Below, piece by piece: positions 13 to 28,276 of a DNA stretch of 32,907 bases (position 1 is the stretch's first letter; the number at the start of each line of letters is the position of its first letter). Position numbers and translations under genes: made by a program. The notes beneath the pieces are model-generated. The model had not been told where the DNA came from and did not search any database. It saw only the letters and a program-made list of their open reading frames with translations. Source of the DNA: Methylobacter sp. (GTDB lineage Bacteria > Pseudomonadota > Gammaproteobacteria > Methylococcales > Methylomonadaceae); assembly GCA_026399025.1 (NCBI GenBank), contig JAPLRU010000118.1, positions 1 through 32,907 on the forward strand. Reading direction: 5' to 3'.

Positions 13-79
13 ACGCTCCAGCGTTGCGGGACGCTGGAGCGTCTACCACTGCATTCCCACGCCGGAGCGTGGGAACGAT
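13..79. repeat. REP hairpin pair (BIME-like), 3' side of RAYT gene
   Basis: There are two hairpins in tandem. The first has a perfect 12-bp stem (13-24 ACGCTCCAGCGT pairing with 31-42). The second has a 9-bp stem, TTCCCACGC (54-62) with GCGTGGGAA (67-75), around the loop CGGA. The second hairpin is repeated almost exactly at 732-757, on the other side of the transposase gene. Such flanking pairs are typical of REP/BIME elements associated with RAYT genes. Confidence 0.85.
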
Positions 80-144: not shown

Positions 145-675
145 TTACCATAAATCCATCTCTATCAAACCCTCCAGCCCCGCATAATTAGAAGCACTCG
201 AATAACGCCAATGTTCCGCCAAGCTGACGTAACCCCGTTTCACAGGATTGCCATGAATATAATCCAGCTTCTCCCGCATCATCGCTTCACTAAAGACCTG
301 CTCAGGATGAACGCCCTCTTGCCAGAACTGATATTCCCGGTCTGCTTTATGCGCTCGTTTGAAAAAACGTAAATGCGCTAATAAGCGCTCAACGTGCTGT
401 GCCTGCAAATGGTCGATTATCTGCCGGGCGGTATAGGACTTGAAGCTGGCCACGCATTTACTCAGGTCTTTCGCTTGAGCTATAAAATGTAAATGGTTTT
501 CGAGGATAACGTAGCCGTAGAGTCGTAAACCTTCGTGTTCTCGTTGATAGCGCCAACAGTCAAGTATGATTTGTACGGTTTCAGGTCGGGTGAAAACCGG
601 CAACCATTCCAATACCGTACAGGTCATGAAATGCGGCCTGTCGGGTTCGGTTATGGTGTAGCGGCTTCTTCCCAT
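145..675 (-). CDS. REP-associated tyrosine transposase (RAYT, Y1_Tnp/IS200-like fold)
   Basis: A protein of 176 aa that resembles the single-domain tyrosine HUH transposases (TnpA_REP/RAYT). In that family an HxH motif and one Tyr nick single-stranded REP DNA. Seen here: the N-terminal GRSRYTITEPDRPHFMT, the HUH motif in 'ENHLHFIAQA', and the C-terminal stretch 'KLDYIHGNPVKRGYV...HWRYSSASNY' that is typical of the family. The start is placed at 675 because AGGA lies about 11 bases upstream; a longer frame to 738 would run into the upstream REP hairpins. REP hairpins flank the gene on both sides (13-79 and 705-757), the classic arrangement in which the transposase is the presumed mover of those repeats. 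Codon use does not look broken and the frame is intact, so the gene is probably functional. Activity on the other repeats in this window is an inference. Confidence 0.9.
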   Translation of the reverse strand: MGRSRYTITEPDRPHFMTCTVLEWLPVFTRPETVQIILDCWRYQREHEGLRLYGYVILENHLHFIAQAKDLSKCVASFKSYTARQIIDHLQAQHVERLLAHLRFFKRAHKADREYQFWQEGVHPEQVFSEAMMREKLDYIHGNPVKRGYVSLAEHWRYSSASNYAGLEGLIEMDLW

Positions 676-704
676 GATGGTCGTAGTCCTTATATTTGTT
701 GGAA

Positions 705-757
705 CGGGACGCCGGAGCGTCCCGGACTGCATTCCCACGCTGGAGCGTGGGAACGAT
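705..757. repeat. REP hairpin pair (BIME-like), 5' side of RAYT gene
   Basis: Two hairpins: CGGGACGC (705-712) with GCGTCCCG (717-724) around CGGA, and TTCCCACGC (732-740) with GCGTGGGAA (745-753) around TGGA, followed by CGAT. The second matches the hairpin at 54-79 apart from the loop. This same hairpin, split open at its loop, forms the outer arms of the composite elements at 7118, 11429 and 14534. Confidence 0.85.
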
Positions 758-4342: not shown

Positions 4343-4565
4343 ATCGTTCCACGCGAAGAGACAGTGAAAGTATTAGCCGGATCAGTTTAAAAACCTATTC
4401 ACTACTAAGGCACGAACGACTTGGAGCAATTGCCGAGAGCACGAAGTTTTTAATAGGTTGAGCTAAAACCATTATTTTCTTCGTGTACTTCGTGCCTTCG
4501 TGGTGAATGCTTTTTGCTTTTGTTCTAAACAAATACTTTCACAGTCTTCGAAGCGGGGGAACGAT
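4343..4565 (-). mobile_element. MITE-like element inside a REP hairpin (copy 1, inverted, loop CGAAG)
   Basis: The element proper is 4359-4547, with terminal inverted repeats AGACAGTGAAAGTAT and ATACTTTCACAGTCT. It is flanked by direct repeats CGAAG (4354-4358 and 4549-4553). Outside these are the arms of a REP-like hairpin: ATCGTTCC on the left, GGAACGAT on the right. Its internal CACGAAG palindrome and asymmetric segments run opposite to the copies at 7118, 11429 and 14534. It also carries a shortened 23-bp version of the mini-insert (4417-4439). This element fills most of the 334-bp gap between murI and folA; no gene is seen in that gap. Confidence 0.75.
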
Positions 4566-5118: not shown

Positions 5119-5170
5119 TCACGAAGTTCCCCGAAGCAATAAACTTCGTGTCCTTCGTGGTGAATAAAAA
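5119..5170. repeat. Isolated CACGAAG palindrome between folA and apaH
   Basis: ATCACGAAGTT...AACTTCGTGTCCTTCGTGGTGAA forms an imperfect hairpin. It is the same palindrome found at the centre of the MITE-like elements, but without their terminal repeats or REP arms. It lies between two convergent genes and could act as a bidirectional transcription stop. Confidence 0.7.
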
Positions 5171-5174
5171 ATCT

Positions 5175-7117: not shown

Positions 7118-7325
7118 ATCGTTCCCACGCTCCGGAGACTGTGAAAGTATTCGTTTTAGAACAAAAGCAAAAGCATTCAACACGAAGGCACGAAGGACAC
7201 GAAGTTTTCAATACATTGAGTTTATACAATTATTTTTTCCTTCGTGCTCTTCGTGTCTTCGTGGTGAATAGGTTTTTAAACTGATTTTGATAATACTTTC
7301 ACAGCCTCTCCGGCGTGGGAACGAT
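7118..7325 (+). mobile_element. MITE-like element inside a REP hairpin (copy 2, loop CTCCGG)
   Basis: Element 7136-7307 (172 bp) has ends AGACTGTGAAAGTAT and ATACTTTCACAGCCT, which are inverted repeats with one mismatch. CTCCGG occurs on both sides (7130-7135 and 7308-7313). The outer sequence, ATCGTTCCCACG on the left and CGTGGGAACGAT on the right, would rejoin into a REP hairpin like that at 54-79 if the element and one CTCCGG were removed. Inside is a long palindrome built from CACGAAG units. It has no coding capacity. Confidence 0.8.
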
Positions 7326-7368: not shown

Positions 7369-7507
7369 TTCGCCGCAAAGGCACGAAAAAATACAACTTC
7401 GTGCTCTCGGCAACCGCTCCTGCGTTGCTCTACCTCCTGCATCCATGCAAGTCGTTCGTGCCTTCGTGGTGAATGCTTTTATTTTAAAACGAATACTTTC
7501 ACAGTCT
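7369..7507 (+). mobile_element. Left-truncated MITE-like copy carrying the mini-insert
   Basis: The right end, ATACTTTCACAGTCT (7493-7507), and the inner CACGAAG-type palindrome are present. The left terminal repeat is missing or degenerate. Within one arm is the 51-bp mini-insert (7404-7454). The sequence to the right (CAGCAGCTTGGGAAT) looks like half of a REP hairpin. Confidence 0.6.
7404..7454 (-). repeat. Mini-insert repeat, copy B
   Basis: Read on the minus strand it begins CGACTTGCATGGATGCAGG and ends GGTTGCCGAGAG. It matches 18687-18738 over nearly its full length and 4417-4439 at both ends. It interrupts the CACGAAG palindrome: CACGAA lies on both sides. Confidence 0.75.
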
Positions 7508-7571
7508 CAGCAGCTTGGGAATAAGCGAATGAATAGGCTATTAACAATCACAAATCAGTAAGGACAAAACA

Positions 7572-11132: not shown

Positions 11133-11375
11133 ATTGTTTTATTGAACGCTTACTTGCGGTTTTTGTTGGGCTTTTGTTAAATTGTATAAAAACTTAACAA
11201 ATCAATAACGCCTTAAAATATCAATAACTTAGAATGTATTATCGGGTTTTGAAGTGCTCATTTAAAAGCTGCGCTAAGTGATTGATTGTTGCTGTGTGCA
11301 AATGTTAAAGAGGCGTCAAAAACCGATCGATTAATGCGCTGCTTTGTTGGCCTCGACTAAAAAAATTAAAGAATT

Positions 11376-11417
11376 TCACCACGAAGACACGAAGAGCACG
11401 AAGTTTTATAGGTTTCG
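11376..11417. repeat. Truncated CACGAAG palindrome
   Basis: TTCACCACGAAGACACGAAG on the left, with a partial complementary arm TTTCGTGTCTTC on the right, running almost directly into the REP arm of the next element at 11429. It is a lone copy of the inner palindrome without terminal repeats. Confidence 0.6.
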
Positions 11418-11428
11418 TGTCTTCTGTT

Positions 11429-11645
11429 ATCGTTCCCACGCTCCGGAGACTGTGAAAGTATTCGTTTTAGAACAAAAGCAAAAGCCTTCACCACGAAGAC
11501 ACGAAGGACACGAAGTTTTTAATGCATTGAGTTTAATCAATTATTTTTTCTTCGTGAACTTCGTGAACTTCGTGTCTTCGTGGTGAATAGTTTTTTAAAC
11601 TGATTTTGATAATACTTGCACACTCTCTCCGACGTGGGAACAATG
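11429..11645 (+). mobile_element. MITE-like element inside a REP hairpin (copy 3, loop CTCCGG)
   Basis: Element 11447-11626 (180 bp) begins AGACTGTGAAAGTAT and ends with a decayed inverted copy (AATACTTGCACACTCT). The flanks are CTCCGG (11441-11446) and CTCCGA (11627-11632), within the REP arms ATCGTTCCCACG and CGTGGGAACAAT. It has the same orientation as copy 2. The decay of its right end suggests an older copy. Confidence 0.75.
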
Positions 11646-14533: not shown

Positions 14534-14737
14534 ATCGTTCCCACGCTCCGGAGACTGTGAAAGTATCGTTTTAGAACAAAAGCAAAAGCCTTCACCACGA
14601 AGACACGAAGGACACGAAGTTTTTAATGCGTTGAGTTTAATCAATTATTTTTTCTTCGTGAACTTCGTGTCTTCGTGGTAAATAGATTTTTAAACTGATT
14701 TTGATAATACTTTCACAGCCTCTCCGGCGTGGGAACG
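14534..14737 (+). mobile_element. MITE-like element inside a REP hairpin (copy 4, loop CTCCGG)
   Basis: Element 14552-14721 (170 bp) has ends AGACTGTGAAAGTAT and ATACTTTCACAGCCT and identical CTCCGG flanks (14546-14551 and 14722-14727), with REP arms ATCGTTCCCACG and CGTGGGAACG. It has the same orientation as copies 2 and 3. It separates the emrA operator from tetR. Confidence 0.8.
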
Positions 14738-16742: not shown

Positions 16743-16812
16743 CGTGATTAACGGCAAGCTTACTTTTTGACGCGCTATTAATAAAACCCACAAGAGCTTG
16801 ATTAAAAAAATT

Positions 16813-16875
16813 TCACCACGAAGACACGAAGAGTCACGAAGTTTTATAAGCTTCGTGATCCTTCGTAGTGAATAA
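16813..16875. repeat. Isolated CACGAAG palindrome between tolC-type gene and yceI-type gene
   Basis: TTCACCACGAAGACACGAAG... pairs with ...CTTCGTGATCCTTCGTAGTGAA around a short AT-rich loop. No REP arms or terminal repeats are present, so it is the inner layer alone. Confidence 0.7.
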
Positions 16876-16944
16876 AAAATGCTGCGTGTTTCTGGCTCCA
16901 GCTTTGGAACGAGCAGACTATTTTCGAAAAATGGAGACATTGCC

Positions 16945-18630: not shown

Positions 18631-18798
18631 ATAACTTAGGAACGCGCATGAAATAACGTCGGCAACTGGCTCCCTCTCCTGCTGGACGACTTGCATGGAT
18701 GCAGGAGGTAGAGCAATGAATGGAGCAATTGCCGAGAGGGTTGGGGCGAAGGAGAATCAAATGCTCAAGTTATTTCATGCACGTTCTTTAGCCGTTAT
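18631..18798. repeat. Nested palindromic repeat with mini-insert at its centre
   Basis: The outer arms are ATAACTTAGGAACGCGCATG(AAATAAC) at 18631-18657 and its near-complement at 18769-18798. Inside them is a CCCTCTCC / GAGAGGG hairpin with 'ggttggggcgaaggag', a widespread intergenic repeat type. Inside that is the 52-bp mini-insert. The three layers share no sequence with each other. Confidence 0.7.
18687..18738 (+). repeat. Mini-insert repeat, copy C
   Basis: It starts CGACTTGCATGGATGCAGG and ends GCAATTGCCGAGAG, and includes TGCATGGATGCA (a 5-bp hairpin) and AGGAGGT followed 6 bases later by ATG. The same sequence is at 7404-7454 (opposite strand), and a short form is at 4417-4439. Here it sits in a host repeat unrelated to the one hosting the other two. 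Confidence 0.75.
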
Positions 18799-25000: not shown

Positions 25001-25036
25001 GAAGCTCAAAATTCAAATATCGCGTAAACGCCATAA

Positions 25037-25155
25037 TTACTCCTCCAACAACGCCAAATATTCCTCTTCACTAATAACCCGTACCCCCTTTTCCGTGGCA
25101 GCAGCGATTTTTGCCGCGCCCACATCGGAACCGGTCACCAGGAAATCGGTCTTCC
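25037..25155 (-). pseudogene. Remnant of a ligA 3' end (last 38 codons and stop)
   Basis: On the minus strand this reads KTDFLVTGSDVGAAKIAAA, then TEKGVRVISEEEYLALLEE and a stop. The full ligA ends with the same stretch apart from six substitutions (positions 26318-26434). The DNA differs at many more, mostly synonymous, positions, and the frame is free of stops. It has no start or upstream domains, so it is a displaced or duplicated tail, not a gene. It abuts the stop codon of the WD40 gene directly. Confidence 0.9.
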
Positions 25156-26230: not shown

Positions 26231-26317
26231 CAATCTAACTTTTTATTTTCTAAGCCCACTTGCACTAACAGGACAGACCGTATAGACAAATACGACACCA
26301 TCAACCCACAAAAAAAA

Positions 26318-28276
26318 TCACTTCCCCAACACTCCCAAATACTCCTCTTCACTAATAACCTGCACTCCCTTTTCCATAGCGGCAGCGATTTTTGCCGCCC
26401 CCACATCGGAGCCGGTCACCAGAAAATCGGTTTTCCCGGTCACGGATGCGCCCACTTTTGCGCCTAAACGTTTGGCTTCCTTGCTCATATCATCGCGTTT
26501 ACCGTGAATCATGGTGCCGGTAAAGACGATGGTTTTGCCGGAAATCGGGCTGATGTGTTGCTGTTGTTCAGCAAGCAACGGCGTTGGGATTAAATTAAAA
26601 CCCAGACCGTAAATTTGCATGAAATCATCTTTGATTTTTGCCAAACATTCGACCACGGCGGCGCTGGTTTTGTCGGCGAAGCCTTCGATAGCCATCACGT
26701 CTTCAACGGTCAGATTGAAAATATCCAGCAAACGATGATGTTGCAGCAGGCGTTCGCAATTGCCCAAGCCCATGCGGTGAATGCCGAAAGCGCCCAGAAA
26801 GCGCCAGTCTTCTATGGCTTCGGTTCGGCTGCGTTGCAACTGATCCAGCAGATTTTGCGCGGTTTTGTCGCCAAAACCCATGGCTTGCAGTTGCTCCATG
26901 TCCAATTGATAAACGGCATAAACCGAATTGATGCCGAAAGCGTGGAGTTTTTCGACGGTTTTTTGCCCGAAACCGTCGACATTGGCCAAGGTTCTGAAAA
27001 AATGCTCGATGGTGTTTTCGATTTGCGCCGGACATTTCGTGGTGTTCAGGCAATAAAGATAATCGCTGTCCCAAACCAGCTCACTGCCGCAACTGGGGCA
27101 ATGCTCGGGGATTTGCGGCGTTGCCGGGGTAATGACCCGCTCGATTTTAGGTATCACCAAGCCTGAGCGGGTTAATTCAATTAAGGTGCCTTCCCCGATG
27201 CCCAGCTCCTTGACCATGCCGTAATGATGCGCCGTCACCCTGGAAATCATCGCACCGCTGAGTTTGGTCGGGGTCAGCTCGGCAACCGGATTCACCCGGC
27301 CGGAACGGGAGGTTTGCGGAGTGACCTTCAACACGATCACTTCGGCGGTTTGGACATTGTTTTTATAGGCAATCTGCCAGCGATGGTGATGCCGGGTCGC
27401 GCCCAAATACCGCTTTATACGGTCATTATCGGCCAGCTCGAAAACCACGCCGTCGACATCGTAATCGATCTGGGTGTAGACGGTTTCGATAATCCGGTCG
27501 AAATCGGTCAGCACTTCGGCGGCCGGACCTTGCCAAGCGGGCAATTGGGAAAACGGAAAAAACACCGCCGCATGGTTTTGTATGGCTTCTAGGGCGTGTT
27601 GTTCCAGTTCTTTTTCTTTAATAATGCTGGCCTGAAAATTCCGGGAATTTTCAAAATACTCGGCCAAATGCGTGTTGAAATACATTTGGCTGACGACGAT
27701 TTCACCCGCGCCCTGCCCTCTTTCGCCATTGCCGCCGACGCTCAAACCGCGCTCGAAAACCCGGCTAATGTCGGTGCCTTTACGGCCGTCGCCGCGCGTA
27801 TAGAGGGCTTTACCGTCGTCATAAGCGGCGTAACCGTCCAGCTTGGGCGTGGCCCGAATCGTCAACGTGGAGAAATCTACGTCACAGTCTTCGGCCGCTT
27901 TTTTTAGCCGGGCCAGCCATTTTTCAATGCCGCTGCGGGTATAGGTTTTCTCCGTTGACAGCATAGGCTCGGGCAGGGCAACGGTTTTGCCGACGGCGAT
28001 AACTTCCGGCTCGACGGTTTCTAAATAGCGATGATGAGGGTGACGCTTTTGCAGTTCCGCCAGAAAAACAAGGTCATAATCCGCATCGGAAATCAGAGGC
28101 TCTCCGGCACGATACAAAGCATTGCAGCGTTGTAAAAACTCCAGCAACTGCTCGTCGCTGAGTTGTTCGGCGTTGGCCTGTGTTGCGATTTGAGCGATCA
28201 GTTCAGGAGATAAATGGGTCGGTTCAAGGTCGGCTTCTTTTAGAAGCTCTAATTGTGTATGGCTGAGGGATGGCAT
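26318..28276 (-). CDS. ligA: NAD+-dependent DNA ligase (divergent form)
   Basis: A 652-aa ligase that seals nicks in replication and repair. In order: domain Ia ('YRAGEPLISDADYD'); the adenylation domain with the catalytic lysine in 'TPKLDGYAAYDDGK' (Lys145) and 'TRGDGRKGTDISR'; 'DVDGVVFELAD'; the OB fold ('LKVTPQTSRSGRVNPVAEL'); a four-Cys zinc finger (Cys393, 396, 409, 415); helix-hairpin-helix repeats; and a C-terminal BRCT domain (about 575-652). Several usually invariant spots differ: MLSTEKT instead of MLSLDN, and GTDIS instead of GEDVT. It lies at the standard smc-zipA-ligA locus but is separated from zipA by a small gene. No clear ribosome site precedes the ATG. Confidence 0.93.
   Translation of the reverse strand: MPSLSHTQLELLKEADLEPTHLSPELIAQIATQANAEQLSDEQLLEFLQRCNALYRAGEPLISDADYDLVFLAELQKRHPHHRYLETVEPEVIAVGKTVALPEPMLSTEKTYTRSGIEKWLARLKKAAEDCDVDFSTLTIRATPKLDGYAAYDDGKALYTRGDGRKGTDISRVFERGLSVGGNGERGQGAGEIVVSQMYFNTHLAEYFENSRNFQASIIKEKELEQHALEAIQNHAAVFFPFSQLPAWQGPAAEVLTDFDRIIETVYTQIDYDVDGVVFELADNDRIKRYLGATRHHHRWQIAYKNNVQTAEVIVLKVTPQTSRSGRVNPVAELTPTKLSGAMISRVTAHHYGMVKELGIGEGTLIELTRSGLVIPKIERVITPATPQIPEHCPSCGSELVWDSDYLYCLNTTKCPAQIENTIEHFFRTLANVDGFGQKTVEKLHAFGINSVYAVYQLDMEQLQAMGFGDKTAQNLLDQLQRSRTEAIEDWRFLGAFGIHRMGLGNCERLLQHHRLLDIFNLTVEDVMAIEGFADKTSAAVVECLAKIKDDFMQIYGLGFNLIPTPLLAEQQQHISPISGKTIVFTGTMIHGKRDDMSKEAKRLGAKVGASVTGKTDFLVTGSDVGAAKIAAAMEKGVQVISEEEYLGVLGK

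Follow-up and report, generated by a model that had tools for sequence, protein, structure and literature searches.

How a short repeat could come to lie exactly in the loop of a REP hairpin, at several places in one genome, is the question raised by the stretch of Methylobacter sp. DNA analysed here (the window, i.e., the whole stretch of 32,907 nucleotides). The preliminary description of this DNA had reported that at 7118-7325, 11429-11645 and 14534-14737 an element with terminal inverted repeats splits a REP hairpin at its loop, with CTCCGG on both sides, and had read this arrangement as a target-site duplication of 6 bp made by an element for which no name was known. We assign a probability of about 0.9 to the reading that the element is a non-autonomous MITE belonging to a branch of the IS1182 family, which is aimed at the centres of palindromes and duplicates the 4 bp of the loop.

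The splitting of the hairpins was confirmed: REP arms and CTCCGG flanks were found at each of the three places, the one-sided CTCCGA of the second copy being on its right, and the hairpin at 54-79, which had been taken as the intact form, is indeed uninterrupted (Table 1). The element spans from GAGRCTGTGAAAGTATT to the inverted copy of GAGRCTGTGAAAGTATT, and the terminal repeats of the three window elements have the form AGRCTGTGAAAGTAT. The window also carries a gene for a REP-associated tyrosine transposase (RAYT), which presumably disperses the REPs and not the MITE. A search for Rfam RNA families at the gathering score gave 0 matches in the window.

Table 1. Positions of the MITE copies, of their target duplications and of the related REP features in the window.
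Feature	Position	Strand	Remarks
MITE copy 1	7135..7308	+	174 bp; ends GAGACTGTGAAAGTATT / AATACTTTCACAGCCTC
Left TCCG target duplication (REP loop), copy 1	7131..7134	n/a	
Right TCCG duplication, copy 1	7309..7312	n/a	
Split REP hairpin, left arm, copy 1	7118..7130	+	ATCGTTCCCACGC
Split REP hairpin, right arm, copy 1	7313..7325	+	GCGTGGGAACGAT
MITE copy 2	11446..11627	+	182 bp; mutated right end
Left TCCG duplication, copy 2	11442..11445	n/a	
Right TCCG duplication, copy 2	11628..11631	n/a	Next base A, not G (the CTCCGA of the preliminary description)
MITE copy 3	14551..14722	+	172 bp
Left TCCG duplication, copy 3	14547..14550	n/a	
Right TCCG duplication, copy 3	14723..14726	n/a	
MITE copy 4	4358..4548	-	191 bp; inverted, more diverged; absent from the preliminary description
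CGAA duplications, copy 4	4354-4357 and 4549-4552		Decayed REP hairpin
Remnant of a fifth copy	7451..7508	-	Single end, then AGCA and GCTTGGGAA (REP arm)
Uninterrupted REP hairpin	54..79	+	Loop CGGA, complement of TCCG; same class as the split ones
RAYT gene	145..738	-	REP on either side; NF047646 match

The genome from which the window comes (G000; 5.23 Mb in 138 contigs) contains 55 exact two-ended pairs (42 whose ends are separated by 128-158 bases, 13 by 159-189), and the reversed-pattern control found 0 at both spacings; the element is therefore not a product of chance. Single ends with at most one mismatch number 140 in forward and 129 in reverse orientation in the same genome (controls: 1 and 13), and strict uninterrupted hairpins of the form GTTCCCACGC-NNNN-GCGTGGGAAC occur 14 times. 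The copies of this genome are 121-222 bp long and lack a transposase gene; being short, gene-less, numerous, bounded by terminal inverted repeats and flanked by a target-site duplication (52/66), they are MITEs by the usual definition. Two-ended copies are present in 16 further genomes, and a scan of contigs of nine relatives found both ends in four, one end in two and neither in three. A broader family search matched 22 of 61 genomes, many through the inner repeat only, so that 22 is no count of carriers. Copies 118-121 bp long form a class in other genera (L045, L047-L052, L113-L119) whose members have little in common beyond the terminal repeats: the length is kept, the interiors differ, and some (e.g., L050 and L052) contain a long inner hairpin.

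The boundaries were read from 131 distinct two-ended copies (66 from the window's own genome and 65 from other genomes), 11 of which exceed 1 kb; solitary ends, ends with more than two mismatches, pairs near the end of a stretch and duplicates by flank were kept out of the duplication counts. With the element read as GAG...CTC and four bases compared on each side, an exact 4-bp direct repeat was present in 98/131 copies (52/66 own, 46/65 others, 8/11 long ones), in a set that takes in part of the genome's copies and in which a few rows are perhaps non-independent (the flanks of L124 and L249 are nearly alike). Shuffling of the right flanks yielded a mean of 13.1 exact repeats and a maximum of 24 for the whole set, 15.8 and 28 for the own copies and 4.2 and 12 for the others, and shifting both boundaries by one base or more reduced the exact repeats to 0-4 of 66 and 0-11 of 65, respectively. 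The duplicated tetramers are of 25 types, or 19 once complements are merged. An exact repeat is missing from 33 of the 131 copies, including 3 of the 11 long ones; eight further copies match at three of four positions and seven carry loop copies that are inverted with respect to each other. These seven (L006, L010, L062, L080, L288, L290 and L297) show TCCG/CGGA or TCCA/TGGA, and our guess would be that they arose by exchange between copies.

The duplication thus has 4 bp, the length of the loop, and not the 6 bp that had been proposed. The larger figure is apparent only and results from the C that precedes and the G that follows the loop in REP stems. In 15 rows a base other than C precedes the repeat; 13 of these elements nonetheless have C as their last base, and none has copied the preceding base. 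In 18 rows a base other than G follows the repeat; 17 of these elements have G as their first base, and one has copied the following base. The terminal G and C hence belong to the element itself, which rules out a 6-bp duplication. Single-strand insertion of the IS200/IS605 kind leaves no target duplication and was rejected for that reason.

Insertion into a hairpin implies that related genomes may hold the site uninterrupted, and a search for such empty sites, proposed in the preliminary description, succeeded in part. The cleanest case is that of a full-length IS, L101 of genome G037, which interrupts the hairpin CTTTCCCAAGC-TCCA-GCTTGGGAAAG; in the sister species G060 this hairpin is uninterrupted and has a single TCCA, with 95.5% identity over 696 aligned bases through the junction. 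G060 is the only one of five sister species to align through the junction, both flanks being matched and the spacer being different in G010, G081, G082 and G083. A second case concerns a MITE copy, L039 of G037, which is common to G010, where its right end has been lost. The left flanks of G081 and G082, 91-93% identical, can be aligned up to the insertion point and continue as the uninterrupted hairpin CATTCCCACGC-TGGA-GCGTGGGAACGAGGA, and an uninterrupted hairpin of the same sort lies in this spacer in G060 and G083; the case is less clean than the former, since the right flank past the arm is a field of repeats that cannot be aligned base by base and the final stretch of the left flank resembles a repeat as well. 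For the window's own copies, orthologous spacers were sought in 23 genomes of the genus, the window's own included, and no empty site was obtained for the copies at 7118 and 14534. At 7118 both anchors were located in 20/20 stretches and no REP was detected in these 20 same-genus relatives, the anchors adjoining or overlapping in 17 (where the hairpin scan covers a narrow strip) and enclosing a REP-less insert in three. At 14534 both anchors were found in 13/15 stretches, with a REP-like uninterrupted hairpin in G072 only and there not in exact register, and for the spacer at 4354 the upstream anchor was absent from 5/5 stretches. We also noted that the hairpins holding a full-length IS of G037 (L102) and a 142-bp MITE of G010 (L219) have their near flanks in common; they may represent one site or one repeat family.

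The ends for which no named element was known can be assigned to a transposon of the IS1182 family. A first, smaller set of loci contained no convincing end pairs at the length of an IS; genome G037 has four exact end pairs 1703 bp apart, which delimit an element of 1707 bp with one long open reading frame. The transposase of 500 aa matches NF033551, the NCBIfam model of IS1182, with 425.9 bits (cut-off 270; E 2.3e-127), as well as the Pfam domains DDE_Tnp_1_6, DUF772 and DDE_Tnp_1. All four copies lie in REP loops, which are duplicated (TCCA, TGGA, TAGA and TGGA), and their ends are identical to those of the MITE: the longest match of an own MITE end to an IS end is of 18 bases on the left in 48/66 copies and of 19 bases on the right in 32/66. 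What is shared between MITE and IS is the ends and not the interior. These ends are also borne by ISs of Methylobacter luteus (one genome with two copies, of which one has an exact repeat), of a Methylovulum MAG, of a Methylococcaceae MAG and of G024, G039 and G080; no exact repeat flanks the copies of G039 and G080. The named relatives point to a methanotroph of the Methylococcaceae group as the probable host. G080 belongs to the same genus as the window, and its IS of 1709 bp lies between AAGC and GCTTGG arms, with loop copies that differ (TCAA and CGGA). The search that was positive in G037 gave no IS1182 transposase above the family cut-off when applied to the window's own genome, its one match having an E of 1.3e-4, in an assembly whose 138 contigs could hide a copy; a further search of that genome was empty as well. 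Further IS1182 groups occur in multiple copies in G053 and G080 (L247, L270, L258, L271); they have reading frames of 452 and 464 aa and ends GAGTCTGTCGGACA and GAGACTGTCGGA lying beside the self-complementary CTAG at both outer edges, two copies of each having been compared.

Could the hairpin arms, instead of being a target, form part of the mobile unit? A composite of single origin (REP arm, element, REP arm) might have been amplified in its entirety, perhaps by RAYT in the manner of a REPIN-like doublet, with CTCCGG as part of the unit. One REP class does hold most of the own copies, a REP-armed query aligns nearly end to end at many places, and a RAYT gene and REPs are found inside the window. 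We nevertheless consider such an origin extremely improbable. A uniform CTCCGG, which the preliminary description had named as the mark of a single amplified unit, is not what tabulation of the flanks gave: the loops vary, yet do so in step on the left and the right (TTCG, TCCA, AGGA, TAAA, TTCA and others). The stems remain matched as well: where each arm of an own copy is either ACGC or AAGC (51 copies), the pair is ACGC/ACGC in 43 cases, AAGC/AAGC in 7 and mixed in 1 (Fisher p 7e-8), and the element is present in both orientations relative to the loop (TCCG/TCCG in 24, CGGA/CGGA in 12). In other genera the targets are unrelated palindromes with centres such as GTAC, GTTA and TTTA; GTAC stands between GTAGG and CCTAC in G053 and Methylobacter luteus, and TTTA between AAATAGC and GCTATTT in G026. 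Together with the uninterrupted hairpins at filled sites, these matched tetramers bear out the earlier proposal of insertion into a loop that becomes duplicated. Varied tetramers, matched stems and both orientations point to many independent insertions and, in general, not to amplification of the composite as a unit; the matched variation of loop and stem speaks against such amplification as the overall explanation. Some copies may have been amplified locally, many copies sharing TCCG. It is also very unlikely, to our mind, that the hairpin-targeting MITE is driven by a different transposase and resembles the IS1182 element at its ends by coincidence. Such a view would agree with the failure to find an IS1182 transposase in the own genome and with the restriction of the likeness to the ends, but it has to contend with 18-19 bp of end sequence, the length of the duplication and the class of target, all of which the MITE has in common with the IS of G037, and with the presence of the 1709-bp IS between REP-like arms within the genus, even if the loop copies of the latter differ.

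The sequences themselves establish the ends, the 4-bp duplication, the independence of the insertions, a preference for REP loops, an empty site and, in a relative, a full-length IS that is alike in ends, target and duplication. The MITE is very probably mobilised by an IS1182 transposase, as judged from the shared ends, duplication and target. A DDE transposase supplied by a full-length relative would bind the terminal repeats GAGRCTGTGAAAGTATT, mobilise the element in trans and join it to a two-fold symmetric target through staggered cuts, 4 bp apart, that span the symmetry centre. In a REP hairpin (stem ...CCCACGC/GCGTGGG... or ...CCCAAGC/GCTTGGG...) this centre would be the 4-nt loop, and after gap repair a loop copy would consequently flank the element at either end. 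The supply of targets would probably come from the dispersal of REPs by RAYT, which suggests a layered parasitism wherein a repeat associated with RAYT serves as the landing pad for a second mobile element.

What the enzyme recognises at its target is a separate matter, and it would appear to read the symmetry of the site. It is also possible, although we regard it as somewhat unlikely, that the enzyme reads the sequence of the target, namely the REP arm, rather than its symmetry or fold, loops being struck since REPs are the commonest carriers of the arm. Seven own exact-repeat copies in which a REP arm is clear on one side only (L029, L276, L278, L287, L291, L292 and L294) speak for such reading of the arm; the different palindromes of other genera speak against it, as do 38 rows without a REP-like half, in which 136/304 positions pair across the 4-bp centre (shuffle mean 104; reached by 1 of 5000 shuffles), in a set that comes from a crude filter, retains a few REP-like hairpins (the window copy at 4358, L080, L095 and L275) and several similar G053 sites, and is not fully independent. 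Conversely, the transposase might recognise an extruded hairpin (a cruciform) and cut at either end of the loop, which would make a site of every hairpin whose loop has 4 nt, regardless of sequence; we put this forward tentatively and think it rather unlikely. In 18/52 own exact-repeat copies the perfect stem beside the loop is no longer than 3; out of 12 positions, 8 of these copies still pair at 8 or more and the other 10 at no more than 5. In other genomes the perfect stem is shorter than 4 in 24/46 exact copies. The weak stems of these 18 own copies and the seven one-sided REP arms argue against a hairpin being strictly required. If the cruciform were nevertheless the substrate, the enzyme would be a DDE integrase guided by structure, sparing the stem and duplicating the loop, a counterpart of IS1272, which removes the stem-loop. 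The many matched sites make recognition of a cruciform versus that of duplex DNA directly testable.

Several known systems share features with the MITE, and no paper on this element was recognised in the literature searched. REPINs are short palindromic repeats moved by a RAYT that is encoded elsewhere. The MITE resembles them in being a short palindromic repeat and, very probably, in being moved by an enzyme from elsewhere; here, however, the ends are of IS1182 type and the REP serves as target instead of being what moves. A REPIN, which consists of two complete inverted REPs, was rejected: each side of the element has one arm of a single REP, and the empty site contains just one REP. Among insertion sequences, IS1397 enters the REP loop. 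Insertion into REPs has been described for IS1397 and ISKpn1, of the IS3 family, and for other ISs, and the families named in the portion of that source available to us are IS3, IS110, IS4, IS256 and IS5, with IS1182 not among them there (PMC1525189); on this partial basis the likeness is in the insertion into REPs and the difference in the transposase family.

The closest comparison is with IS1272 and TnSha1, IS1182-family elements of Staphylococcus, which, in the available parts of two papers, target inverted repeats without common sequence and delete or replace the stem-loop without making a duplication (PMC4923244, PMC5678879). As far as these parts go, the IS1182-family transposase (here that of the partner in G037) and the inverted-repeat targets are alike, and the outcome differs in that the stem is kept and the loop duplicated. 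Inverted-repeat replacement of the IS1272 type was rejected for our element: the comparison of the G037 site with the empty G060 site shows the stem to be retained, and most compiled copies have the exact duplication. Duplication of the loop only is drawn as one possible pathway for IS1272 (PMC5678879, Fig. 13, pathway c), and the sites described here, within what that source shows us, look like natural examples of this alternative path, in a MITE family from an IS1182 branch with loop duplication. Their significance is that natural filled and empty sites indicate that an element of IS1182 type can keep the hairpin stem and duplicate the loop, and that an unnamed repeat is tied to a known transposase family. 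IS1182 elements on plasmids (from Sulfurimonas aquatica, H2, H6 and H14) have transposases that are 43-44% identical and, except for H6, 4-bp repeats at perfect 16-bp inverted ends; they differ in that none lies in a REP-like hairpin, one copy of each having been available. The Sulfurimonas aquatica element has ends GAGACTGTGAAAGAAC and TGTA on both sides (6 bp, CTGTAG, is an equal reading); the flanking repeat is GGCC in H2 and in H14, the latter annotated ISPa7, and the best ends of H6, annotated ISPmo1, lack one. H1 and H8 were excluded, as their best inverted ends look unconvincing.

Some minor observations concern the interior of the MITE and the remainder of the window. A small nested insert of 47 bp (CGACTGCACGGATGCAGGAGGTAGAGCAACGCAGGAGCAGTTGCCGA and variants) occupies one fixed place in the inner CACGAAG repeat of the 220-bp MITE class (L061-L066, L288-L293); it is also found in the window at 4358-4548 (shortened), 7425-7455 and 18686-18716. 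L294 carries this insert in the opposite arm, and a related repeat of G080 (L180) has it too. Outside the MITE, the inner arm TTCACCACGAAGACACGAAG...CTTCGTGTCTTCGTGGTGAA stands alone at 11375-11419, 16796-16880 and 5151-5172 of the window, has short matches in several related genomes, and looks like a second REP-like family within the MITE. Finally, a direct repeat of 121 bp, 86% identical between its two copies (25035-25155 and 26316-26436), lies near the 3' ends of two adjacent minus-strand open reading frames of the window.
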